27,669 nucleotides of DNA from the IMG/VR virus record IMGVR_UViG_3300031772_000224, positions 1 through 27,669 of that record; one strand, given 5' to 3'. Position 1 is the stretch's first letter. Every line of letters starts with the position of its first letter. The notes under the pieces are model-generated. The model was not told where the DNA came from, did no database searches, and saw nothing but the letters and a program-made list of their open reading frames with translations. A program made the position numbers and the translations under genes. Positions 7,247 to 27,184 of this stretch are shown here, piece after piece. Origin of the DNA: a virus.

Positions 7247-8380
7247 TTATTTGTCACCCGTGGTTAACAGTTTATTACGGGCGGAGGCGAATAAGCACTG
7301 ATATCCAATGGTATTGGACAGTACGATCTCGTCCCATTGACCATTGATGATCTTGTTGGTCTCAGTAAGATCAGCACCAGCCTCTCGATAGCCAATCAGG
7401 GCATATCTGTTATCGATGCCGATCAAATCGTTAGCCACCACATCATCATGGATGACGAAATTGACATTCCCAGGCACCCTTCCGTTAATCAATCTTGGAA
7501 CTCCCTGTAATTTGCTCTGGTCAATAAAATTAGTCATATAAATAGGGAAAATACTCGGCGCAGCAATCGCATAAGCCTTGATGATGTCATCTGCACAACC
7601 TATGACGGTAGTACACATTCCAGGATAGAAACTGCATAACCAAGTAAGCCAAGACGTATATTCCAAATCTTCCGTACCGGCTGGAGCTCCACCCTGAATG
7701 TCATCTTTTAGTTCCGTTACGGCGATGGCTCCCGCTCCACCCACAGTACCACTTCCATCACCAGCGTAAAGAACAGCGATAGCCTGTGAGATCTCAGCGG
7801 CCCTTCTCTGTAGCATGATTCGCTGGATCAATAGGGTAATGATAGGAATTGAACTTCTCCTAACGAACTCGTAGGACATTTCAAGAGCAACACCATATTT
7901 CGCTAAGGTGGTTGCCTTCTCTGACCAACTGATCTTGGTTACCGGGAACTTACCCATCTCACTGACTCGGTAAGTAGCCCTCTGTGCCGCCGTATCATCA
8001 ATGTAAATGGCACGATATACACTGGTTCCAACTAACGTCTCGGTTGAAGCCACCAACTGAGATTCAATATCATCCTGGGCCATCACCGCAACCCTGGCGA
8101 TCCGGTTCAAAAATTCGGGAAAGAGAATCCTCGACGCAGGCAGATTGCTCTGAAAGAACATCTCTCCCATAGAGGCCCCTGTTCCACTTTTGGGATCGTT
8201 CTTGGTTCGAATCCCAAACCGCATCAACTGTCTCTCAAAGGCATCGAGTTGATCCTTGGGAGCAGATGGATCAATTAACTCCAAAAGACTTGAAAGACTC
8301 ATATAGTTATCGTATGCCTTCGCATACAAATCCTGATTCAGATTAATGTCATTGGCATTTTGCCTTACAATCTCAATCAT
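7247..8380 (-). CDS. Major capsid protein
   Basis: The 377-residue protein has the look of an HK97-fold major capsid protein. A helical N-terminal arm (about residues 1-60) leads to an E-loop-like region and a beta-rich core. The spine-helix-like region is SIPIITLLIQRIMLQRRAAEISQAIAVL. The C-terminal part (GNVNFVIHDDVVANDLIGID...ADLTETNKIINGQWDEIVLS) is typical of the A and P domains. It lies directly after the decoration protein and protease/scaffold genes. AGGAGGATAATCAGC precedes the ATG. A promoter-like palindrome upstream and a terminator-like hairpin downstream fit its expected high expression. Confidence 0.85.
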   Translation of the reverse strand: MIEIVRQNANDINLNQDLYAKAYDNYMSLSSLLELIDPSAPKDQLDAFERQLMRFGIRTKNDPKSGTGASMGEMFFQSNLPASRILFPEFLNRIARVAVMAQDDIESQLVASTETLVGTSVYRAIYIDDTAAQRATYRVSEMGKFPVTKISWSEKATTLAKYGVALEMSYEFVRRSSIPIITLLIQRIMLQRRAAEISQAIAVLYAGDGSGTVGGAGAIAVTELKDDIQGGAPAGTEDLEYTSWLTWLCSFYPGMCTTVIGCADDIIKAYAIAAPSIFPIYMTNFIDQSKLQGVPRLINGRVPGNVNFVIHDDVVANDLIGIDNRYALIGYREAGADLTETNKIINGQWDEIVLSNTIGYQCLFASARNKLLTTGDK

Positions 8381-10230: not shown

Positions 10231-10372
10231 TGCAAAACCCCCTTAATAGTTCCTCTGTTTCCAACTCCTCTTGTGCTTTAAGAAATTCTTTCTTCTTCTT
10301 TAACTCCAAATCTCCGGCTTCATCTTCTGGTGCGATATCGTGACAACACATAGGCCAACTTTCCCCCTTCAT
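10223..10372 (-). CDS. 49-residue acidic helical protein between portal and protease
   Basis: This short frame begins at an ATG that overlaps the portal stop codon (ATGA) and ends inside the start of the protease gene. It reads MKGESWPMCCHDIAPEDEAG, then a charged helix rich in Lys and Glu, and ends LLRGFCNG. The perfect coupling on both sides and the filling of an otherwise empty 138-base gap support a real gene. Function is unknown; a small head-assembly partner is one possibility. Confidence 0.65.
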   Translation of the reverse strand: MKGESWPMCCHDIAPEDEAGDLELKKKKEFLKAQEELETEELLRGFCNG

Positions 10373-11853
10373 GGATTACCTCCAGACCTACGATCCCGAT
10401 TGGTCGCAGCACGTCTTTGTTCTTTACCGCCCTCTTGAGTCACGCTCCTTTGTGGATCATTTCTTGGGGATGGTGTAAAACCATCTACCCTTACCGCATC
10501 AACAGGTGGAGCACCTTTTTGACCGAGCATCCTTCGGGCGAGAGCATTTCTTTCATCCATGGAGATCGAACCCATCTGCTCTTCCTCCCAAATAAGACCC
10601 GAATATACGGCATAATATTGAGCAGATTCATAAACAGGTCTCAAACTCGGTTCAAGCCATACCCAATCTGCATATGCCTGTATGCCACCTTCAACTTGCA
10701 GTGCCAGGGTAAAAACACGGTCAAGAAGTCGTTTGACGATTTTCTGAAATCCCTCGATAAGTTTTACAAAAATGAGTGCTTCAATGGAAGTATAGCCTTC
10801 CGTACCTCCTCCAAATCTCTTGCCTAAAATTGTAGAGTAGGTTTTCATTGCCGAAGCGATATCAGAAAGAAGAACATCGACGATAGCCTGAACATCGACT
10901 CCTCTACCAGAGTTTCTTCCCTCCAACGTAGAGATTGTTACGTTATCGAGATGAACAGGATTATCATCAGCCTCAAGGGACTGCATCGAAGTCTTGGCTT
11001 CCGATATTGCCGTATTGATGGTCTTGATGATCTCCTGTGGATTACTGATTCCACCGGCCTTGCAACCGTTGATAATAGCCTCCTGGTTAATCTGGATATC
11101 AATGCGATCAAATCCGATATTGTGGAGTGCCCTCGCAAAATCCTGAAGAAGTCTAAATTTACTCATCACAGCCTGAATAGCCGAGATGATTTGATTCGTC
11201 CCGTATGGATCATTGGCTATGGGATCCACGGGAATGTAGATAAAATTACGGTAGTCAAGGGAGATATCTTGACCGAATCCGGTCTGGTACGGCACATACC
11301 GTTGGTTGTCTGACTTAAAAATAACGGTGTACGGATCAACCGAATGAATCGCCACGAGCCTATAATCACTGTTAAATTCAACCTCACCGCACGCAGCCCC
11401 ATCAATCAAGACATGAGTTGCAAACTCTAAATAGGTTTTTGAAAGCGACGTGTCTGAAGCAAAACCAGAACTAACCGGATGTTCGATTCTGGCTATGAGA
11501 TTGTCAATAAAATCCTGTCCTTGCGAATGGATGGAACCGTTTGCCTTCCTCGCCAACACATAATATCCGCTATCGAAGACCCTGAGATAATTAGAGAAGG
11601 CATGGGACACCGTAGGCTCTGCGTAGAGCAAAAACCGGATGAGATCGGTAGAACTTAATTTAATTAGGTTTTCGAGATTATACTTGTGAAGTTCGCTGAA
11701 TTGTCGGGGAATCGTGCTAAAGATATTCTGAGCATACGAACCTATCGGGTCGGTTACGGCTTTCGATCCAACACCTATCCCGCCTGGAGAAACAAAGACG
11801 TTTACCCTCGGTCCAAAAGGAAGGAAGTTTTTAATACGTTGAAGGAAGGACAA
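10369..11853 (-). CDS. Portal protein
   Basis: The 494-residue protein has the marks of a phage portal. There is an N-terminal clip/wing region with LSSTDLIRFLLYAEPTVSHAFSNYLR. A long helical stem follows (QAVMSKFRLLQDFARALHNI, DVQAIVDVLLSDIASAMKTY), with LGKRFGGGTEGYTS near residue 360. The disordered basic tail is rich in Arg and Gly. It lies upstream of the protease and capsid genes. The start is a TTG at 11851-11853, preceded by CGGGAGAGCA at good spacing; no in-frame ATG fits as well. The portal forms the ring through which terminase packs DNA. Confidence 0.85.
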   Translation of the reverse strand: MSFLQRIKNFLPFGPRVNVFVSPGGIGVGSKAVTDPIGSYAQNIFSTIPRQFSELHKYNLENLIKLSSTDLIRFLLYAEPTVSHAFSNYLRVFDSGYYVLARKANGSIHSQGQDFIDNLIARIEHPVSSGFASDTSLSKTYLEFATHVLIDGAACGEVEFNSDYRLVAIHSVDPYTVIFKSDNQRYVPYQTGFGQDISLDYRNFIYIPVDPIANDPYGTNQIISAIQAVMSKFRLLQDFARALHNIGFDRIDIQINQEAIINGCKAGGISNPQEIIKTINTAISEAKTSMQSLEADDNPVHLDNVTISTLEGRNSGRGVDVQAIVDVLLSDIASAMKTYSTILGKRFGGGTEGYTSIEALIFVKLIEGFQKIVKRLLDRVFTLALQVEGGIQAYADWVWLEPSLRPVYESAQYYAVYSGLIWEEEQMGSISMDERNALARRMLGQKGAPPVDAVRVDGFTPSPRNDPQRSVTQEGGKEQRRAATNRDRRSGGNP

Positions 11854-12584: not shown

Positions 12585-12827
12585 TTATTTTTCCGGTACT
12601 TGAACAAATAAACTTAATCGTCCATGTGTCACTAATGCACCACTAATCATTTTAAGTACCCGTAGACCAGTATCACCATCAAGACCATCCTCGCACGATA
12701 TAGAGTCTATCAGTGCCCCTTCCGCAATCTCCAAGAGGTCTAACAATTCACTCACGTCCGATGGATAGCCCACCGTCCAAGTAGGTTTCTGTAACCCCTC
12801 GATGATTCTTTCTGTTGACTCTTTCAT
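12585..12827 (-). CDS. Small acidic helical protein, unknown function
   Basis: The 80-residue protein starts at the ATG at 12827, preceded by AGAGGG. An ATG at 12851 lies upstream but lacks a good ribosome-binding site. It contains VSELLDLLEIAEGALIDSI followed by a short loop and a final strand (RLSLFVQVPEK). It is the first gene after the integron-like cassettes in the direction of transcription. I recognise no family. Confidence 0.6.
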   Translation of the reverse strand: MKESTERIIEGLQKPTWTVGYPSDVSELLDLLEIAEGALIDSISCEDGLDGDTGLRVLKMISGALVTHGRLSLFVQVPEK

Positions 12828-12882
12828 AATCCCTCTGCCGTAGTTTTGCATTATCAGGGCAAAATGGTTTGTTAATCAATGG

Positions 12883-13164
12883 TTATGCAGAATTAATTCT
12901 ATGGTGGATTTCCCCCACACCACGCCCGCCGTCATTGCGGCCCTGCATCCATGCTTTAGGTTATCGCATGGCAGCACTCACTCATTGATGCCCGCATTGG
13001 GCCATATCAACGGTGTCCAACCATCGGTTGCCACAAGTGCCGACGAATCGAACACAGCAGCTAAAAGGTACCTCCGATTTCATAGATTGCATAACCAGAC
13101 ACTCAACCGGACGGTGGATGGCCGTCACGGGTTAGGCGGGAGTAGCCCGCCGGTTAGTTTTTCG
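12883..13164 (+). mobile_element. Integron-type gene cassette A (no convincing gene)
   Basis: The 282-base unit is bounded by G|TTATGC at 12882-12888 and G|TTATAA at 13164-13170, and ends in an attC-like site. The left arm of that attC, GCATAAC at 13089-13095, is the exact complement of the first bases of the cassette (GTTATGC), which is what excision and insertion at G|TT predict. Base composition looks richer in GC than the neighbouring genes. On the plus strand an 89-codon frame (12901-13170) has no ribosome-binding site and runs through the attC. On the minus strand a 36-codon Cys-containing frame (12982-13092) starts within the core site. Neither is convincing. No other gene lies in 12852-13179. 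Confidence 0.6.
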
Positions 13165-13170
13165 TTATAA
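13089..13170 (+). repeat. attC-like recombination site 1
   Basis: The 82-base site has outer core sequences GCATAAC and GTTATAA. Inner arms are CTCAACCGGACGG (about 13102-13114) and CCGCCGGTTAG (13147-13157). Relative to the right arm, the left arm has an extra C before AACCGG and an extra A after it. These are the positions of the unpaired bases in classical attC sites such as those of aadA cassettes. The asymmetry sets the site orientation as plus. The right inner arm together with GGCGGG...CCCGCC can also fold as a hairpin ending in TTTTT, so it may act as a plus-strand terminator. Confidence 0.65.
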
Positions 13171-13389
13171 GGATAAAAATTAATCGTCGTAATCGTAGAC
13201 ATCGCCATAATCATCTTCGGGGCAATGTTTACAATATGTTTGCTCCTTGGTACCATTGAAACAACAGTCATCAATATCACCACCACAGTAGCAAGTCTGA
13301 TAGCAAATTGGGCATTCATGGGCCATAGAAAAAATCTCCTTATAACAAATCACTCCAGCGGACGCCCAGGAGCGCCGCTGACCTTTGCG
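13165..13389 (+). mobile_element. Integron-type gene cassette B
   Basis: The 225-base cassette runs from the cut point in GTTATAAGG (13164-13172) to the cut point of the next core site (13389). The left core of its attC, CCTTATAAC at 13338-13346, is the exact complement of its first nine bases. It carries one small gene on the minus strand (13180-13326). No integrase gene is in the window, so the pair of cassettes would count as a cluster of attC sites lacking an integrase. The gene lies opposite to the plus orientation judged from the attC arms. Confidence 0.62.
13180..13326 (-). CDS. 48-residue Cys-rich acidic protein inside cassette B
   Basis: The protein starts MAHECPICYQTCYCGGDIDD and ends in an Asp-rich tail (DDYGDVYDYDD). 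Cysteines lie at 5, 8, 12, 14, 21, 22, 32 and 35, suggesting a compact metal-binding fold with two CxxC pairs. AAGGAG lies ten bases before the ATG and overlaps the attC core sequence GTTATAAGG. The stop codon lies ten bases before the other cassette boundary. The gene therefore fills the cassette almost exactly. I recall similar short MAHECP-type proteins in bacterial accessory DNA but cannot name a function. Confidence 0.75.
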   Translation of the reverse strand: MAHECPICYQTCYCGGDIDDCCFNGTKEQTYCKHCPEDDYGDVYDYDD

Positions 13390-13395
13390 TTATAT
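13340..13395 (+). repeat. attC-like recombination site 2
   Basis: The 56-base site has outer cores TTATAAC (13340-13346) and GTTATAT (13389-13395). Inner arms are CTCCAGCGGACGC and GCGCCGCTGACC. The left arm again carries an extra A after AGCGG compared with the right arm. This is the usual attC asymmetry and gives the same plus orientation as site 1. The AACAAATC...TTTGCGTTA outline agrees with many chromosomal integron attC sites. Confidence 0.65.
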
Positions 13396-13423
13396 TCTCG
13401 CCGCCTCACCCTTGGCGTTATTT
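13396..13423 (+). repeat. Truncated attC right half
   Basis: CGCCGCCTCACCCTTGGCGTTATTT repeats, with changes, the right half of the site just before it (CGCCGCTGACCTTTGCGTTATAT). No matching left arm is present, so it looks like the remnant of a third cassette boundary. The stop codon of the following minus-strand gene lies within its GTTATTT core. Confidence 0.5.
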
Positions 13424-13693
13424 GACATGAAAAATATAATGACCCCCTCGCCTCGATTCTTGCCAACATAGTATCCAAAACATCCAATTCCTTTCCAATG
13501 CCCCCATAATGTCTTCGTTACCGCTCCATCCTCCGGTTGAAATATTATATATCTTGTCCTTCTGGACCCAGTAACCGCAGTCGGCATATTCCCAGATGCC
13601 ATGAATAAAATCCATCAGGCCAGAGCAGTCTTTTGCGGACCATTTCTCAATTTTTTTAAGTTCTTCTTTTGTAGGATCTCTATTCATAGACAT
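13418..13693 (-). CDS. Conserved small protein, unknown function (ISTGGWSG motif)
   Basis: The 91-residue protein is rich in Trp and aromatic residues. It carries DCSGLMDFIHGIW, YNISTGGWSGNEDIMGALE and CWQESRRGGHYIFHV. I recall similar sequences as an unnamed family in bacterial genomes and accessory elements, with no known function. It begins at 13693 or at 13687, where ATG overlaps the peptidase stop as ATGA, so translation is probably coupled. It ends exactly in the core of the truncated attC. It may once have been cassette cargo, but that is only inference. Confidence 0.7.
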   Translation of the reverse strand: MSMNRDPTKEELKKIEKWSAKDCSGLMDFIHGIWEYADCGYWVQKDKIYNISTGGWSGNEDIMGALERNWMFWILCWQESRRGGHYIFHVK

Positions 13694-14457
13694 AACTCGA
13701 TAAACTTCCCGATCAATGCCATCGAAGCCTTCACTCTTTCGTTAAGTTTAAACTTACCAGGTGTCTCAGTCACGGCTACACGGACAGTTCCCTCGGTGAA
13801 TAACCAATGTTCCAAACTTCCATCTTCTAATTTATATACAATACCATTGTTTACCATAACCCCGTGTCCGCCGAGAGCATCTACCGTTACCAACTCATTA
13901 TCTAAGGGGTCGGTGAAAAATCCAGCCAACGTATTCCGCATTTCATTTGTAAAACGACCCGGAGCATCTGTTCTTTCAAAAGTGTAAACATAATATTTCG
14001 ATGAGGTAATATCCTCATGTAACGATAAAAATCCATCGCGGGAACATGCTTTTAGTAGGGGTAGGTTTTTAAGAAGTATGATACCCTCTTCTGACGGTTT
14101 ATCTCCCGAAGCCTTGGTGTTATAAAAACCGCAATTTGACTTCTCGTTTTTTAAATTGTATCTTCGACCCAATTGATACGCCACCGGATTAATAATAGGG
14201 ATGAAAGAAAGATTAAACGAATAAAATAGTTGTGGATCAAATTCCTCCAGCCATTTTATAATAGATAGCGGGCCAGCTATCTCTTCACCATGCATACCAG
14301 CCACCATTAATAATCGGGGAGATTTTGCTCTATATCCATGCTGATTTGATAGAAACCATATTGGATAATTCCCCACTTCCCCCAACACCCGTAACCAAAG
14401 TTTCTTGTTGGATGCTACCGTAAAGAGTCGTTTATAGAAAATATTAACGGATTTCAT
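13684..14457 (-). CDS. M14-type zinc carboxypeptidase / succinylglutamate desuccinylase-like hydrolase
   Basis: The 257-residue protein carries the zinc-binding HxxE as H56-G-E-E59 in MVAGMHGEE and the third ligand H147 in LSLHED. A substrate-binding region NPVAYQLGRRYN lies at about 90-101. A likely catalytic Glu sits in VAVTETPGK near residue 233. This is the pattern of M14 peptidases and the related desuccinylase/aspartoacylase group. No signal peptide is visible, so it probably acts in the cytoplasm or in cell lysis on peptidoglycan peptides. It lies in the accessory island next to a structured RNA element. The substrate is not evident. Confidence 0.78.
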   Translation of the reverse strand: MKSVNIFYKRLFTVASNKKLWLRVLGEVGNYPIWFLSNQHGYRAKSPRLLMVAGMHGEEIAGPLSIIKWLEEFDPQLFYSFNLSFIPIINPVAYQLGRRYNLKNEKSNCGFYNTKASGDKPSEEGIILLKNLPLLKACSRDGFLSLHEDITSSKYYVYTFERTDAPGRFTNEMRNTLAGFFTDPLDNELVTVDALGGHGVMVNNGIVYKLEDGSLEHWLFTEGTVRVAVTETPGKFKLNERVKASMALIGKFIELCL

Positions 14458-17192: not shown

Positions 17193-19097
17193 TTATTTCC
17201 TTTCCGGCCATTTCACGCCACTGATTTTTGTGTCCGTCACCAGGGACGTATAGTTCATCCTTCCAAGTCGCCACATTAAACTTGCCGCCTGAAATGCAAA
17301 CTTATTAGCGTGGGCATAATGATCCGGCCCCACTGAATACCAAATGGTTTCATACTGAACCTTTCTCGTCGATCTGGTCTTGCCTACCGTTTGTTTTTCT
17401 TCCCTGATCGTCCGTTTCAGGTTGAGGTGATGACTAATCATCTTGCCGATCACTTCCTCCGCTTCCTGTTGAGGCATCGCCAGATATCCTTGATAAAGAA
17501 AGTCGGAGTAGGCATCAAAGGCTCCTGTCTTATCCTCAGAGATCCTACCGACAAAGATTGACTGTCCACCCGGATCCTTTTCCTCATCTACCCATTTAAA
17601 CCCCAAAGAAGGATCGTCAATATTCATCCTTGTGGAGTGGTTAACAAAGACGGTTCGAGGAAAATCCTTCTGAAGATTGGATGCATCGTTACCAGATGGT
17701 TCCGCATCACAGACAGCAAGTTCACAATGAAATTGCTTCAAGATTTGCGAGATTCTTCCTTCCCTTACCGAGATTTGACCATCTACGGTTTGAAAAGTCT
17801 TAAAGGCCAACTCATCAGGCGTAAATTCGACATGAACGATTTCCCATCTGCCGATCGGTGCAAGATCGCCCCGAGAGTTCGGAATGTATCTCCATACGCA
17901 TACGTAAGCCCCCTGGTCTATACCGGCGATATAGGTATAACCAGGTTCATACCCAAATACACAGACGGGAAAGGTTTTAAAGAGTGCGGAGTTCAGACCC
18001 GACTTCTTGTCCTCGTAAGGAATGCCGAGAACATGGTGATGGAAGTATCGAACCGAATTTCCATCCCGTTCTGTCATGATCTCATGGACGGGTCTCGAAT
18101 ACGCCCATGGAATGCGATAACCCCTAACACCCTCACCATAACGGGTGACCGTTTCATAAAATTCTTTTCGTTTCGGCACCCATTCACAGTTATGGGTGAC
18201 ATTGGGTTCGCTGGACTTCCATCCCCCGATTACACTCCAATCAAGGGGACGGTGGCAGGCAAGACATATGTAATAAAGATCGGAAGAGGGTGGTTGTCCC
18301 TTCTCATACCAGTTCGCAATTGAGTCTGGGTAAATCATGGTTTGCCAATGGGAACAATGCGAACATTTCACCATAAATTCGTGCTGGTCAGACAATTCCT
18401 CATATTCTTTTGTAACCCCGAAATTCTCCATCTCTGGACTGGAAAATTTAATCATCATTCCCCGATAGGTCTTACTTCTAAACATTGGAGAGTGCCTGAG
18501 TCTGGAAGGGATCTGTTCACCTACATCAATCTCAAATGTCCTGTCCCATTCGTCACAGATCACAATATCACCCGGAACAGTTGTGACAGATGAGACAGTT
18601 TTTCTACCACCAAAATAAACAGCCGTCCGGCCAAACTTCTTTAACCTAACCTGGTCAACCTCACCTTCGGAAAGCAAGGAGTCAAAGTACGGATTATCTC
18701 TAAAGAAACCACCAAGTCTATCAGCCGAATATTCACCAACCTTGTCGTCACTTTCCAACGTATAAATCACGGTCGGATAGTGCGCCATTTCTACCCCTTC
18801 ATCGGATTTATAGAAGAAGGGCATGAAGGCGTATTGGTCAGCGAACAACATAACCTTCCATTGGATGACCTGGGTTGCTCCTACCTGCGAAGGTTTAGGT
18901 ATTGCTTGTCTCGGGTGAAAATCGTTCAGAATACCGATCTGCCATTCGTACCCCCTGAACTGCACCGGTTGCCCATTGTGTCGAAGATATTTGGTCGCCC
19001 GTTCAGCAAATGTAAGCGAATAGTCTCTACTTAACGAGTTCATCATCGTCGCCATAAAGGGCATCATGTCTTTGGGAACGATCTCACGGTAAGGCAT
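17193..19097 (-). CDS. Terminase large subunit, GpA family
   Basis: The 634-residue protein is the DNA-packaging motor and nuclease. A deviant Walker A lies at about 68-76 (PKPSQVGATQ) and Walker B at 177-184 (GDIVICDEWD). A motif III-like FSSPEM lies at 218-223. A zinc finger has C245, C248, C278 and C281. The nuclease domain begins with YIAGIDQGAY (D394) and continues through LAVCDAEPSG. These features and the GpA-type ATPase spelling match lambda gpA-like terminases. Unusually, the portal is not next to it but about 5.3 kb further downstream. AAGGA lies about 12 bases before the ATG. Confidence 0.92.
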   Translation of the reverse strand: MPYREIVPKDMMPFMATMMNSLSRDYSLTFAERATKYLRHNGQPVQFRGYEWQIGILNDFHPRQAIPKPSQVGATQVIQWKVMLFADQYAFMPFFYKSDEGVEMAHYPTVIYTLESDDKVGEYSADRLGGFFRDNPYFDSLLSEGEVDQVRLKKFGRTAVYFGGRKTVSSVTTVPGDIVICDEWDRTFEIDVGEQIPSRLRHSPMFRSKTYRGMMIKFSSPEMENFGVTKEYEELSDQHEFMVKCSHCSHWQTMIYPDSIANWYEKGQPPSSDLYYICLACHRPLDWSVIGGWKSSEPNVTHNCEWVPKRKEFYETVTRYGEGVRGYRIPWAYSRPVHEIMTERDGNSVRYFHHHVLGIPYEDKKSGLNSALFKTFPVCVFGYEPGYTYIAGIDQGAYVCVWRYIPNSRGDLAPIGRWEIVHVEFTPDELAFKTFQTVDGQISVREGRISQILKQFHCELAVCDAEPSGNDASNLQKDFPRTVFVNHSTRMNIDDPSLGFKWVDEEKDPGGQSIFVGRISEDKTGAFDAYSDFLYQGYLAMPQQEAEEVIGKMISHHLNLKRTIREEKQTVGKTRSTRKVQYETIWYSVGPDHYAHANKFAFQAASLMWRLGRMNYTSLVTDTKISGVKWPERK

Positions 19098-19105
19098 TTA
19101 TTTGT

Positions 19106-19375
19106 TCAATCCTTTAAAATCTCACTGGCCTGATCATGTAAAAGTTTCATGGCCCGATCAAATTTCTTCGAAGCCTCAAGGTATTGTCCTATTTTGAACG
19201 GATCGCCAGTATTTTCTTTCATTTCCCGTTGTGCTTCTTCCGACAGACTTCTTACCTGGGCCAAGAGAGTTTCATGTCGCACGCGCCGAATAAGATTGTC
19301 TGGAATGTCAATAGTCACACGATGCAAAAGACTGATTAATTCTTCTTTGGTAAGATCTTCAATCTTTAATGGCAT
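19106..19375 (-). CDS. Small helical protein preceding the terminase
   Basis: The 89-residue protein reads MPLKIEDLTKEELISLLHRV and continues as charged helices (RSLSEEAQREMKENTGDPFK...). GGAG lies six bases before the ATG, and the gene overlaps the radical SAM gene by ten bases. Its position immediately before the large subunit gene suggests a packaging role, possibly a small terminase-like or accessory subunit. It lacks an obvious DNA-binding helix-turn-helix. Confidence 0.6.
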   Translation of the reverse strand: MPLKIEDLTKEELISLLHRVTIDIPDNLIRRVRHETLLAQVRSLSEEAQREMKENTGDPFKIGQYLEASKKFDRAMKLLHDQASEILKD

Positions 19376-20217
19376 GGGTTACTCCTTGAGTAAGTTTTCC
19401 ACGTTTCTGCAATACTGCCCGACTTTCTATAACATCGTGAGTAAATCATCGTTCTAAAATCGTTCAGAAGATGATTATTCTTATAAACCATCACATACGG
19501 ATCGTGACCAAGATCGTGTATTGTTTGGCAACGGTAAATGTCCTGTTCTATAGTTGTATCGAAACCAACTAATACGTAAATTTCACAACCACGCAATCCA
19601 ACCCTATTGATTTCACCAAAGCCTCGCAATATTGGCGATTCATCCCCCATCCTGTCCCACGAGAAATGAGGCATATGTTTGGTTCCCCATTTTGTCTCAG
19701 ACAACGCCACGGCCCTTTCCTCATCAACTAGTCTAAGATCATATCCGTTTTCGTCTATCATGGTCAGTTTAGCATCCCAAATCTCTTGAAAAGTTTCCTT
19801 CCATTGTGGGTCGGCAAAGGTGTTGTTATTTAGGAGACAAATTTTCTTGAATTGGGGTAAATGAAAATCCCAAATAGATTTATGGGATTGGTCTTTTTCC
19901 ATCTTACCAACTACGCAAAAAGAACACTTTCTCGGACAGTAACGGTAAGTGTATCCGAGTGAAAAATCTAAATCATAAAGAGAATAATCCGGCCTACAGT
20001 CAATGCCAAGAGGTTCAAAATTATATCCTGGTCCACCATATTCATCTGCCAAAAATTTCTTGACATTCCAATCGAAGAGGACAGAAGCATATCGCTTATC
20101 GGCAGGCCACAAGGGTTGATTCAAGGAAACCTGATCACCCCTTTCTTTGTGCCAAGCCGAGGGTTTCATTAAGGCTAAATTATATTTTGGAGCATCCGTT
20201 AGAAGAGAAATCTTCAT
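19366..20217 (-). CDS. Radical SAM enzyme with a B12-binding-like N-terminal region
   Basis: The 283-residue protein has the iron-sulfur motif C94-x3-C98-x2-C101 (YRYCPRKCSFC), which binds the 4Fe-4S cluster that cleaves S-adenosylmethionine. The N-terminal region (KISLLTDAPKYNLALMKPSA) resembles the start of the cobalamin-binding-like domain seen in one radical SAM subgroup, although a clear cobalamin His motif is absent. LLNNNTFADPQW and YDLRLVDEERAVALSE follow in the barrel. The substrate is unknown. It overlaps the deoxyribosyltransferase-like gene by 38 bases, so the pair may act together, perhaps on nucleotides. Confidence 0.85.
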   Translation of the reverse strand: MKISLLTDAPKYNLALMKPSAWHKERGDQVSLNQPLWPADKRYASVLFDWNVKKFLADEYGGPGYNFEPLGIDCRPDYSLYDLDFSLGYTYRYCPRKCSFCVVGKMEKDQSHKSIWDFHLPQFKKICLLNNNTFADPQWKETFQEIWDAKLTMIDENGYDLRLVDEERAVALSETKWGTKHMPHFSWDRMGDESPILRGFGEINRVGLRGCEIYVLVGFDTTIEQDIYRCQTIHDLGHDPYVMVYKNNHLLNDFRTMIYSRCYRKSGSIAETWKTYSRSNPCH

Positions 20218-22735: not shown

Positions 22736-22981
22736 CTATGTCTCTCCCCAGGGACCACCGGAAGTATAAATTTCTTTACCTCCGACTCCTTGAGGTTTAG
22801 GATTCACAGTATAACAGACCGGGTCCTGGATCAATGCTATCCTAATCAGATCAAAAAGATACCACTTCCACCAAACCCTCATCTGACCATTATTGTCTGG
22901 CGCATCAACGGATACTCTTTTGCTTATCAGGGCAAACCGTCTGTCTTTTATCCAAAAGAATAATCGTTTAGTTCTTGACAT
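22736..22981 (-). CDS. 81-residue Trp-rich protein, unknown function
   Basis: The protein starts MSRTKRLFFWIKDRRFALIS and contains GQMRVWWKWYLFDLIRIALI, followed by a Gly-rich end. Several aromatic and basic residues mix, but no clear membrane helix is seen. The ATG overlaps the end of the HD gene by 14 bases and follows AAGGATAGAAG. The family is not recognised. Confidence 0.58.
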   Translation of the reverse strand: MSRTKRLFFWIKDRRFALISKRVSVDAPDNNGQMRVWWKWYLFDLIRIALIQDPVCYTVNPKPQGVGGKEIYTSGGPWGET

Positions 22982-24287
22982 CTTCTATCCTTTCCCCGAA
23001 TAATTCGTTAAACCGTTTCAAAAAGGCTTTCTCCGCCCGCCTATATCCCAGTGGTGTTATTGTGATATTAAGGGGTTTCAAATCTACACCGTAGTTGAGG
23101 GTACGGTCAGTAATGAAATTTTCACGTTCGATAATAAGGGCTAAAAAATCGGCACGTTTAACATGATCGTAAATCACATCTACCATCGGCCATTCAAGAC
23201 CGAATTTCTTCGATATTACCTGCATATACTTATCTTCCAGTTTCTTATACGGTATACCCAAAAAGACTTTAAGGGGGGCAGGAATGTCCAGCAGGTATGC
23301 TTCGGCTGCATCGTGTAACAATCCCTCTTTAGCCCACATGGGATTAACAATCTTCGACACCATAACACAATGTTCTGCCACACTGTTATGAGACCCGAAC
23401 CCTTCAGTCAGATATGTATGTGTAGACGTTTCTATCGCAACCACAGACCCTACGCCAGCATCCCTTGCGTCTATCACCGGAAGAAGCGCGCCCTGCCTCG
23501 ACACATCCGTCCCGACCATTTTATTTTGCATTCGACCGATAAGCCGATAGGGGCGAATGGAACCGAGAAGAGCTAATTGTTTTCCAAACCCTCCGCGCAC
23601 AGTGAAGCGTTTGCATCTGTAACTTCCCTGATAAGAACATTGAACATCTACATAACGCGATTTAAATGCCCGAACCAGCAAGTCAAAAAGCACCCCTTCG
23701 TTTTGAGAAATCCCCAGAGATCGTCCTCGACTATTTTTACTCGATATGCACCCTTCCCCATCAAACATCCCTGCAAGCCATCCAGCTTCCCAGGTTCCGT
23801 CAGTTGCCCACACCGGAAGAAGTTTCGGCAAATACGTTGTTTGCCCTTTTGAAAATCGTTCAAAAATTTTCCAAGCGACTTCCCAACGTTGATTTCCAGA
23901 CGCCTTAAAAGAACAAAGCAATGGATGTTCTCTTGAACAACGGACACTTGTGCCATCCCCAAATGTTAATTCAATAAGACGACGCTTAATCAATCCGTGT
24001 ACAGAAGCTATCGAAGGTCTCCACTTCCGCAAACGTCTATGACCCCCGTTCGCCTCGTCGAACCCCCACAGTATGTCTCCAGACGCGATTGACCCCGCAG
24101 GAACCCAACGGTAATCATAAGTAAGAATTTTCGTTTCAGGGGTCACACAGTAGAATGGTTCAGTCCTTCCGCCAAACCTACACTGTCTCGCCAGATGGTG
24201 CGCAATATCACGAATATCAATATCATCCACCTGCGGATGAAGGAGTTTATAAACCTTGCCAGTATAGGTATGGTCTAAGATTATCAT
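22968..24287 (-). CDS. HD-domain phosphohydrolase (YfbR-like) interrupted by an intein
   Basis: The spliced protein would have about 184 residues, with the start taken at the ATG at 24287 after GCGGTGAA; an ATG at 24305 is possible. Extein text RFGGRTEPFY joins S302-VAEHC, giving the hallmark FYSVAEH motif of YfbR-like HD enzymes. H325-D326 in LLHDAAEAYL and DIPAPLK plus a downstream KRADF complete the metal site. These enzymes remove phosphate from deoxynucleoside mono- or triphosphates and often serve phage nucleotide metabolism. Function depends on removal of the 255-residue insert at residues 47-301. The gene lies between RNA ligase and small unknown genes. Confidence 0.88.
   Translation of the reverse strand: MIILDHTYTGKVYKLLHPQVDDIDIRDIAHHLARQCRFGGRTEPFYCVTPETKILTYDYRWVPAGSIASGDILWGFDEANGGHRRLRKWRPSIASVHGLIKRRLIELTFGDGTSVRCSREHPLLCSFKASGNQRWEVAWKIFERFSKGQTTYLPKLLPVWATDGTWEAGWLAGMFDGEGCISSKNSRGRSLGISQNEGVLFDLLVRAFKSRYVDVQCSYQGSYRCKRFTVRGGFGKQLALLGSIRPYRLIGRMQNKMVGTDVSRQGALLPVIDARDAGVGSVVAIETSTHTYLTEGFGSHNSVAEHCVMVSKIVNPMWAKEGLLHDAAEAYLLDIPAPLKVFLGIPYKKLEDKYMQVISKKFGLEWPMVDVIYDHVKRADFLALIIERENFITDRTLNYGVDLKPLNITITPLGYRRAEKAFLKRFNELFGERIEDVKN
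23385..24149 (-). mobile_element. Intein with a LAGLIDADG homing endonuclease
   Basis: The 765-base in-frame insert encodes 255 residues. It begins C47-VTPETKILTYDY, the splicing N-terminal block, with block B as REHPLLC. An endonuclease motif LAGMFDGEG follows, and block F/G TSTHTYLTEGFGSHN ends with the required His-Asn. The next residue is Ser, which accepts the splice. Splicing would restore FY-SVAEHC, the conserved motif of the host enzyme. All splicing residues appear present, so the intein is probably active. Only one clear LAGLIDADG motif is seen. Confidence 0.9.
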
Positions 24288-24288
24288 T

Positions 24289-25155
24289 TCACCGCAATCC
24301 CGCATTACACTCTAAATGTTTTCTAAACAACACCCCGGTCTTTTTACCAATGGACTTCCTTGTTTCCTTCGAATCCACGATTTCCCCACTGCCTTCCCTT
24401 ACCACGTCCGCTATCATTTCCTTGATAATATCACCCATCATCTCTATCCCGGGTTCTAACTCTGGGGAAAACCGTTGTAGCACATGGGCAAGGCGCATTT
24501 CAGTCACCCACTCATCGGCTATCGCTTCGGCATCCGACAATACTTTAAGTTTAGCAGGGTCAAGCTCCCTCGAGGTTTTTGTTTCCTTAAATTCTTCACG
24601 CTTATGTTTGGCAATAATGCGTTCTCCATTGTTCTTTGTGAGTTCGATCAATGGTCTTAAAACAATTCCTTCCCGTATATGGGTATCCCCCCTCCCGTTT
24701 TTTTGAGCCTGAATTGAAACTGCATCACGGTGGGCGTTTAATGTTTTGATATCGGTTGGAACTTGGGCGTAATGGACAAAATCAAATCCTAATCCTCTGG
24801 CGACTTGCTCCGCATTGGGGACATTTAACCATATATCTCCAATCTTGACTTCGAAGGCTATAAACTTTAGTTCCTTACCGTAGACCTTACTCATGCCTTG
24901 GCATTTACCACCATATGCCTCCCCATAAACAGTTACTACCGGATACCCAAGAACTTCAAACTTCGAAGGTAGTCCCCATGCATCAAAGAGTAGAACAAAG
25001 TTGGCATGGTCTACTCCACCGGCGAAGAAGTGAACTTGACCGTCTTTCCAAAAAACTTTTGCGGATGTGCCATGAATTTTCTCCATGGCGTAACATTCCT
25101 TAAACAAAAGAATGTCATGATTTTTATACAAATTGTCAATATTGAGATAACTCAT
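24289..25155 (-). CDS. RNA ligase (Rnl2/DraRnl-like nucleotidyltransferase)
   Basis: The 288-residue protein has the ligase motif I with K26 in EKIHGTSAK (KxHG), the lysine that forms the adenylate. Motif III-like KFIAFEV and motif IV REGIVLRP lie in order, and IIAKHKREEFKE carries the motif V Lys pair. This set is that of ATP-dependent RNA ligases. The C-terminal part, rich in helices, fits an extra domain. Phages use such ligases to repair RNA, for example cut tRNAs. The start at 25155 overlaps the upstream gene by four bases, and the stop lies just before the HD gene start. Confidence 0.87.
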   Translation of the reverse strand: MSYLNIDNLYKNHDILLFKECYAMEKIHGTSAKVFWKDGQVHFFAGGVDHANFVLLFDAWGLPSKFEVLGYPVVTVYGEAYGGKCQGMSKVYGKELKFIAFEVKIGDIWLNVPNAEQVARGLGFDFVHYAQVPTDIKTLNAHRDAVSIQAQKNGRGDTHIREGIVLRPLIELTKNNGERIIAKHKREEFKETKTSRELDPAKLKVLSDAEAIADEWVTEMRLAHVLQRFSPELEPGIEMMGDIIKEMIADVVREGSGEIVDSKETRKSIGKKTGVLFRKHLECNAGLR

Positions 25156-26340: not shown

Positions 26341-26985
26341 TTATCTGTAATCGTCTGTTACATCTTTTCCGGTAGCCACATCAAAAACCTGGAGGATTTC
26401 GATTATATCTACACTGGCCTTCCCATCGGTTACCCACGGTTCATTGATTTTTGCACCTTCCGGGATGCGGATTTTAGCCTCCAATGGTCGATTGGGAAAA
26501 TTGACGGCACACCACGACCGAGAAGCGAAGTGAAAACCCGGATAACTACATGCTATCCGTTCATCGGAAGCAAAGACTTCTCCCTCTCGTAATGTATTCA
26601 GACCGATGTGATATTGATATCCTTGATTGTTTAATCCAGATTCAAAACGTTTCCAGTAAATATTTCCGATCTCAACACCTATTGTTTTGATAAGACCTCT
26701 TGTATCCGACAGATCGGCTCTCGACAGGTTGGCTCTCGATAGGTCGGCTCTCGACAGGTTGGCTCTCGATAGGTCGGCTCCCGATAAATTGGCTCCCAAT
26801 AGGTCGGCTCCCGATAAATTGGCTCTCGACAGGTTGGCTTCCGATAGGTCGGCTCCCGATAGGTCGGCTCCCGATAGGTCGGCTTCCGACAGGTTGGCCT
26901 TATTTTCCTCAATTAATTTCTTAATATCTATGTCTCCAGTACAAATCACCTCACCCGTAAATCTATTTTTGGTCTGATTTTCCAT
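26341..26985 (-). CDS. Pentapeptide-repeat protein with a C-terminal phage domain
   Basis: From the ATG at 26985 (after GGGAGGG) the protein has 214 residues. Thirteen tandem pentapeptides of the A(D/N)LSx type span residues 30-94 and should form a right-handed quadrilateral helix that can mimic DNA. The C-terminal half ([20 protein letters not shown]...[19 protein letters not shown]) resembles a domain found in other phage proteins. DNA mimicry or binding to host topoisomerase is possible for this fold, but I infer nothing firm. The start overlaps the HTH gene by 23 bases. Confidence 0.82.
26704..26898 (-). repeat. 15-base tandem repeat coding for pentapeptides
   Basis: Thirteen units of 15 bases run through this stretch, each encoding one A(D/N)LSx pentapeptide. 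Neighbouring units are nearly identical in DNA (for example GCCGACCTATCGGGA-type units), which points to recent expansion by slippage or recombination rather than ancient divergence. Confidence 0.85.
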
Positions 26986-27184
26986 TGATCCCTCCCGCAT
27001 TCTTCGTTTTGGTTTTGCGTAACCACGCCATAAATTCAGGTTCGTAATAGAATGGTTTACCACCCAACTCAACCCATGGACACCCCTTCTTTCTGAGCCC
27101 GTAAAGTGTTCCCTCAGAAACTCCCAAGGCTTTACATAGACGCTCTTCAGAGAATAATTTATCTATCCTCGCTGATCCGTTCAT
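26963..27184 (-). CDS. Small helix-turn-helix DNA-binding protein (AlpA/excisionase-like)
   Basis: The 73-residue protein carries [20 protein letters not shown] and [20 protein letters not shown], the winged HTH pattern of excisionase-like (HTH_17) proteins. The C-terminal basic tail ends GKSDQK. Such proteins bind DNA as regulators or assist recombination. AAAGGGGAGAAAG gives a strong ribosome-binding site. It overlaps the gene before by 26 bases and the one after by 23, so all three are translated together. Confidence 0.8.

Follow-up and report, generated by a model that had tools for sequence, protein, structure and literature searches.

A virus record of 27,669 bases (IMG/VR record IMGVR_UViG_3300031772_000224; hereafter the window, meaning this whole stretch of DNA) carries what is very probably a phage integron cassette platform without a detectable integrase, on which the integron integrase (IntI) of the host would act in trans. 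Between two minus-strand phage genes, the plus strand reads in order attI, cassette 1, attC1, cassette 2, attC2 and the remnant of a further site. In established integron biology, IntI binds attC as a folded bottom strand, which it then joins to attI at G|TT. As read from the sequences, the sites stand in this order, IntI goes undetected, and related phages have gained, lost or reordered cassettes nearly always at G|TT; it is from these array differences that we infer site-specific recombination by an integron integrase. The platform appears functional, and the comparative evidence for movement is strong.

An earlier note on this DNA had read positions 12883-13417 as two integron-type cassettes inside a phage genome. 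That reading is supported, the two attC-ended cassettes in the window are confirmed as real, and the start and end given there fit the boundaries to the base. Overlooked at the time were the attI site at 12851-12884, the leftward gene of cassette 2 and the site-end remnant at 13390-13417.

Sites and cassettes in the window

The large open reading frames (ORFs) of the window lie mostly on the minus strand. Its terminase large subunit, portal and major head protein, together with a tape measure protein in G182, a near-identical relative that extends beyond the window, mark the carrier as a phage. The window may be a fragment, as may the virus records compared with it. The main features are as follows.

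7247-8380: major head protein (PHROG family match)
10369-11853: portal (PHROG family match)
12585-12851, minus: phage gene, transcriptionally downstream of the array (from the ORF list; likely start about 12828, by eye)
12851-12884, plus: putative attI, 34 nt, TTATCAGGGCA...TAATCAATGG|TT, with the crossover between G12882 and T12883
12883-13164, plus: cassette 1, 282 nt, first 7 nt complementary to R'' of attC1, no convincing gene
13089-13170, plus: attC1, terminal site of cassette 1, GCATAAC...CGTTATAA, found by covariance models R1 and R2
13165-13389, plus: cassette 2, 225 nt, first 9 nt complementary to R'' of attC2
13180-13326, minus: cassette 2 gene for a 48-aa cysteine-rich protein (MAHECPICYQTC...), start adjoining attC2 and reading toward attI
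13340-13395, plus: attC2, terminal site of cassette 2, TTATAAC...CGTTATAT, found by covariance models R1 and R2
13390-13417, plus: remnant, apparently of a former attC of which the right half is left, CGCCGCCTCACCCTTGGCG|TT; the array probably ends here on the right
13418-13693, minus: phage gene upstream of the array (from the ORF list), stop codon on a G|TTA boundary
17193-19097: terminase large subunit (PHROG family match)

The two phage genes that border the array match no PHROG or Pfam family, and a BLAST search with 2.2 kb around the locus returned zero matches among deposited phages; a stretch of the upstream gene is common to the window and the related locus L003. Several other minus-strand ORFs of the window were noted in passing. 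The one at 13684-14457, adjoining the array, encodes a succinylglutamate desuccinylase/aspartoacylase-like protein (PF24827), and that at 24289-25155 an RNA ligase (PF09414). By eye, the ORF at 22968-24305 has an HD-hydrolase-like start and end with an apparent intein in between, whose LAGLIDADG domain matches Pfam PF14528 below cut-off. Also by eye, 19366-20217 has a cysteine motif recalling radical SAM enzymes, with no Pfam match, and 26341-27072 encodes a pentapeptide-repeat-like protein with runs of ANLSGADL.

An attC covariance model had been proposed as a check on the two sites, and two models trained on bacterial attCs match both. Model R1 was built from 17 bacterial attCs at loci with an integron-integrase gene over the NCBIfam cut-off and was run on the window with filters off. 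It gives 41.2 bits for attC2 (E 6e-8) and 36.2 bits for attC1 (E 1e-6), both on the plus strand, and only 13.0 bits for the third-best match in the window. Because a pattern derived from attC2 had led to the source genomes of R1, model R2 was built from 12 sites unlike attC2; its scores are 46.0 bits for attC2, 38.3 bits for attC1 and 10.8 bits for the third-best match. The sensitivity of R1 is limited, as three published phages yielded three matches of 15.8-19.1 bits, with none in P12002L. A strict hand-made attC finder missed most phage sites and was replaced by the covariance models and a looser finder, which gave 38 matches in bacterial loci versus 4 in shuffles.

The extra A in the inner arms and the extra C in the left arm of the first site, which the earlier note had pointed out, can be read directly: the left arms of attC1 and attC2 each have the extra A, and that of attC1 the extra C as well. 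On folding, the bottom strand of attC2 forms the expected hairpin (-12.0 kcal/mol, z -2.9). The bottom strand of attC1 taken alone prefers a branched alternative fold (z -2.3), and for attC1 the top strand gives the slightly better fold.

The complementarity between each cassette start and the R'' of its own attC, which had been taken as a fingerprint of G|TT recombination, holds for both cassettes over the 7 and 9 nt listed above. It reaches at least 7 nt in 32 of 46 phage units and falls short in the other 14, compared with 2.75% of 2,070 combinations in a control of mispaired units and attCs. This tally, like the main counts of cores, gene direction and flanks, covers phage contigs other than L014, L017, L018, L021 and L027. 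Of 65 distinct phage sites, 50 have GTTAT as the R' core; of 74 bacterial sites, 42 have GTTAG. The remnant at 13390-13417 belongs to a direct repeat (D10) and closely resembles intact attCs of L094 and L156 in their right half. A tRNA search of cassette 1 was negative, and nothing in the window reaches an Rfam gathering score; weak Rfam matches below that score (sR10 on attC1, and DicF) were taken as chance.

A search of the window for IntI (TIGR02249) gave 0 matches. None of 25 virus records has IntI over the cut-off, one (G201) having a sub-threshold recombinase, and neither do 9 further virus records, one of which (G497) gives a weak match. The integrase-free phage cassettes of the earlier note are found as described, in a record that may be a fragment. 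By our own covariance models the locus falls under the definition of a CALIN, with two attCs on one strand, 251 nt apart start to start, and no intI. Among the parts of a complete integron it has a predicted attI and attC-ended cassettes with G|TT boundaries, and an intI gene was not found in these possibly fragmentary records.

Smithella sp. (G018) was considered as a host because an attC on its IntI-bearing contig (locus L045) is 98% identical to attC2 over 50 nt. This candidate was rejected, the best attI match at its integron being 20 of 36, which is background level. A search of 99 genomes of the same phylum, run without a positive control, found no relatives of the terminase.

The attI family in phages and bacteria

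The attI of the window recurs at 34/34 identity in L001, in L090 and L092 (the contigs of L002 and L003, in the latter case the outer copy), in L095 and in L097, and at 32/34 in L094. The stretch CATTATCAGGGCAAAATGGTTTGTTAATCAATGG|TT is matched at 34 to 36 of 36 positions in seven viral contigs, and in three of these, L004, L005 and L006, the attI stretch is the sole BLAST match to the window. With a looser pattern 16 viral contigs were found, 9 of them new, and attC matches follow attI on the same strand in 7 of these 9.

Related sites occur in bacteria. A search pattern based on the phage sites plus one bacterial attI (L106, 124 nt from its own IntI) was found at 18 places in 13 of 297 genomes of G018's phylum, compared with 0 for a reversed-pattern control. 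Fourteen of the 18 places were inspected, and at eight of these an IntI gene or an N-terminal remnant of one starts 102-207 nt away: full genes in G275, G306 and G487, and remnants in G030, G392, G362, G427 and G435. At the other six there is no close IntI relative within the stretch inspected. Between phage and bacterial sites, 25 to 31 of the 34 positions are identical, with 31/34 next to the IntI remnant of G392 and 29/34 next to the full IntI of G306. When 10 kb of the window was compared with 17 bacterial genomes chosen for bearing attI or attC sites, and no more than 17 candidates were scored in each, 12 matches resulted, spread over 10 genomes and all on the attI and attC2 stretches. 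Our reading of these results is that the phages, in which IntI goes undetected, carry the attI cognate to an IntI clade.

Two further features of these sites were seen. Bacterial places such as L131 and L134 have an inverted repeat, TTATCAGG...CCTGATAA, within attI that is partly lost from the copy in the window. In L092 (15868-16113), and likewise in L098, a unit is ended by attI rather than by attC, so that L003 has two attI in a row; the start of the gene in the L092 unit resembles the window gene at 12585-12851 (92% over 101 nt).

Array differences and cassette genes

The portal proteins of L001, L002 and L003 are 100% identical to that of the window, and among relatives that match it at 99.5-99.9% over 6-25 kb the arrays are different, the left breakpoint being at the attI G|TT in two of three. 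The window and G183, the contig of L003, match at 99.76% over 12,885 nt and 99.9% over 12,435 nt, and between these blocks lie 456 nt in the window versus 2,845 nt in G183. Two attC matches are found in the window and five in G183, and four and two are seen in L001 and L002 before the contigs end. After the common attI flank, the first unit begins with TTATGCAG in the window and L001, with TTATGCCG in L002 and with TTAGAATG in L003. These differing units join attI exactly after GG and resemble one another there only over TTA to TTATGC. Cassette 1 occupies the identical place in L001, where L002 and L003 have other units, and cassette 2 is present in L001 and absent from the L003 array.

Individual cassettes can also be followed from one setting to another. 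A 346-nt cassette (2 mismatches) directly follows the second attI of L003 and is the third cassette of L001; its neighbours differ, and both of its edges are at G|TT. A 253-nt cassette of G186 (1486-1738) is absent from G185, cut at G|TT, and the two backbones are 99.9% identical over 5.7 kb. G187 and G188 have a common left flank (60 nt compared) ending in AATCAATGG, after which different units follow. Two cassettes of L157 are missing from L151, across a flank 99.5% identical over 1,153 nt; one of the junctions in L151 is exact and the other has an extra TT. The arrays of G187 have stretches 95-100% identical to those of G181, G182 and G183, and its best PHROG families for terminase and portal differ from those of the window, with overlap among the weaker matches.

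As the check set by the earlier note required, cassette boundaries coincide with presence/absence breakpoints in relatives, at G|TT, with two exceptions. One is the extra TT in L151. The other is the attC of cassette 2, whose left half agrees between the window and L001 and whose loop and right half differ. Because this mosaic is not predicted by exchange at R', recombination inside attC probably also happens.

The protein of cassette 2, for which we chose a 48-aa start inside a 57-aa ORF, has a relative in the phage contig L149 (71% identical over a 35-aa stretch), with no attC match in the 5.1 kb examined there; phage genes may therefore become cassettes. We scanned ten cassette proteins, the window's own and nine chosen for length and look from 50 listed. 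Eight of them score above a Pfam cut-off: four N6_N4_Mtase, two MT-A70, one TET-associated glycosyltransferase and one PAPS reductase domain. Seven of the ten are thus DNA-modification enzymes and one is PAPS-reductase-like; a weak N6_Mtase match and the 48-aa protein of the window fall below cut-off. The PADLOC defence library, applied to seven proteins, identified four as type II methyltransferases and the PAPS protein as BrxP, and returned nothing for the glycosyltransferase or the 48-aa protein. Many of the other listed cassette ORFs are below 100 aa, several of them cysteine-rich by eye.

Most of these genes point the wrong way for a classical cassette, in which the gene runs with its attC and has the attC at its 3′ end. 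In the window, the gene of cassette 2 lies on the strand opposite to its attC, which is found at the 5′ end of the gene, and no clear gene is seen in cassette 1. When each unit is oriented by its longest ORF of 50 aa or more, which does not prove a gene, 38 of 42 phage units run against attC (44 distinct units, two without such an ORF), whereas 44 of 46 bacterial units run with it (Fisher p 7e-18, with units that are not independent). L010, L011 and L022 had been dropped as parts of L100, L102 and L101. The bacterial count was made without L029, L032, L044, L045, L051 and L054, which are repeated inside longer loci, and without five weak or mirror rows; it retains other rows scoring 22.6-23.7 bits and includes one additional site.

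Inversion as a rule for all phages was rejected on two further sets. Contigs found through attI have 9 inverted units among 19, the other 10 running with attC (21 units, two without an ORF), and contigs at first left out have 7 inverted and 4 running with attC among 11, where longest-ORF calls are unreliable. The latter scoring took four of the five contigs named above, L027 being untallied as a repeat of L021's array, and L017 has one site only. Summed over all phage sets, 54 of 72 units are inverted relative to attC, and all eight cassette genes over the Pfam cut-off are inverted.

The direction of neighbouring phage genes mostly provides a better rule. Among 27 rows considered, the majority direction of the array equals that of the right-flank phage genes in 15 of 17 scorable arrays and that of the left-flank genes in 15 of 19; the rest lack a flank or a cassette or tie, the window being among the ties. 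The two right-flank disagreements are the minus array of L102 and L151, and L151 and L157 are near ties. In L150 the cassettes and the right flank are both plus, and in the contig of L003 both are minus.

As a separate observation, the stretch 2684-5500 of L021, between two attC matches, holds an 838-aa ORF that by eye is DnaB-like.

Possible mechanisms and known integrons

The arrangement suggests that a host-type attI within a phage operon receives cassettes, each ended by its attC. The IntI of the infected bacterium would act in trans on folded attC bottom strands in the phage DNA, for which phage replication would supply the single strands, joining attC to the phage attI or attC to attC, and the cassettes would be drawn from a pool common to several phages. 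As gene direction suggests, cassettes would have no promoter of their own and would be transcribed by phage read-through, so that those kept would point with the phage genes, which at the window locus is opposite to the usual direction. To judge from its content, such an array could supply exchangeable DNA-modification genes that aid escape from restriction, as well as small proteins. Counting against this account are the 14 of 46 units with a shorter R'' match, the mosaic attC of cassette 2, the extra TT in L151 and the near-even gene directions in contigs found through attI, and also the lack of a clear gene in cassette 1 and of a family for the product of cassette 2; the DNA-modification theme comes from ten hand-picked proteins of the 50 listed. 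We lean towards a more specific version, in which several phages of integron-carrying bacteria took up the attI of their hosts without the integrase, use the host enzyme and trade cassettes from a pool of their own, often with attC in front of the gene; the cassettes, reoriented for expression by phage read-through, would form a common, reshuffled kit of genes for DNA modification and other counter-defence.

One alternative leaves integron integrase out and treats the attCs as no more than short repeats, whose similar stems would recombine homologously, or serve for template switching, while the phage replicates. Several attCs do have about 18 nt in common, and both exceptions to the G|TT rule, the mosaic and the extra TT junction, would be at home there. 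Repeats alone leave attI unexplained, however, and the different first units that abut attI exactly after GG have only TTA to TTATGC in common with each other. One cassette has changed position, with unrelated neighbours and a G|TT cut at either end, another was gained or lost at G|TT, and the R'' complement rule of at least 7 nt is obeyed by 32 of 46 units, which leaves this alternative improbable. Still less credence attaches to the idea that the phage acquired part of a bacterial integron array on a single occasion and has since inherited it passively as a frozen piece. Such a piece would have attI and attCs resembling those of bacterial integrons, as is the case, and published phages carry such clusters; yet cassettes are common to different phages, their genes mostly run opposite to the direction in bacterial arrays, and arrays that differ between phages 99.5-99.9% identical elsewhere contradict a frozen piece unless they are assembly errors.

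Assembly errors are themselves very unlikely to account for the locus. The contigs under comparison come from metagenomes, repeats such as attC can mislead assemblers into stitching bacterial cassette arrays to phage contigs, and the contigs of L001 and L002 end inside their own arrays. Against such chimeras, attI and cassettes 1 and 2 with the same flank recur in a second record (L001), phage DNA flanks the array on both sides in the window and in L003, and other phage contigs have the same arrangement; the repeated stretch is also shorter than the words that assemblers usually employ. The reading of the two sites as hairpin-forming terminators or chance repeats resembling attC is already refuted, and we give it almost no weight. 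Although attCs are thought to hold weak terminators, according to Qi et al. 2023 (PMC9892861), two covariance models pick only these two places in 27.7 kb. The extra bases, the cassette-start complement and attI all fit as well, and the presence/absence boundaries go beyond any chance model.

That phages are an unusual carrier, as the earlier note had it, needs to be qualified, as phage cassette clusters without integrase had already been reported; new here are attI, exchange, sharing and inversion. In the part of Qi et al. 2023 (PMC9892861) drawn on here, integrase-less attC clusters (CALINs) are described in phages TJE1, PH101, P12002L and others, five of six tested phage attCs recombined with attI1 through IntI1, five predicted methyltransferase genes lie in phage-associated cassettes, and an attI stands ahead of the cluster in an inactive Shewanella prophage. 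The arrays described here resemble those CALINs, as that text presents them, in their attC clusters without integrase and their methyltransferase cassettes. They differ in having an apparent attI without IntI, natural array variation in near-identical phages, cassettes common to different phages and mostly inverted genes. With R1, PH101 has two weak sites with neighbouring genes on the opposite strand, and the single weak site of TJE1 has its gene pointing the same way as attC. In the literature searched, judged by title apart from the same portion of PMC9892861 and poor in subscription papers, we found no description of an attI platform without integrase outside a defective prophage, of cassette exchange between near-identical phages or of inverted cassettes.

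Bacterial chromosomal integrons, in G018's phylum and others, share the attI family, the attC family and the G|TT rule; they differ in having an IntI gene or remnant at 8 of the 14 attI places examined and genes that run with attC in nearly all units (44 of 46). Class 1 and other mobile integrons have the attI-attC cassette architecture as well, and the present arrays differ from them in that intI was not found, that resistance genes are absent from the scanned proteins and that the carrier is a phage.

Work on integrons treats them as devices of bacteria; on this evidence the phage would contain a capture site proper, beyond stray cassettes, whose plugged-in content differs between close relatives. 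The borrowing of a host integron integrase by phages to renew counter-defence genes thereby becomes directly testable, and phages may offer a route for cassettes to travel between bacteria. Cassette direction provides a natural contrast, as bacterial arrays follow attC and these phages mostly follow the phage genes. Among the bacterial records, G167 (L086/L089) has an attI-like site with no nearby IntI, which by eye adjoins an mnmA-like gene and is followed by a HicB/HicA-like pair.
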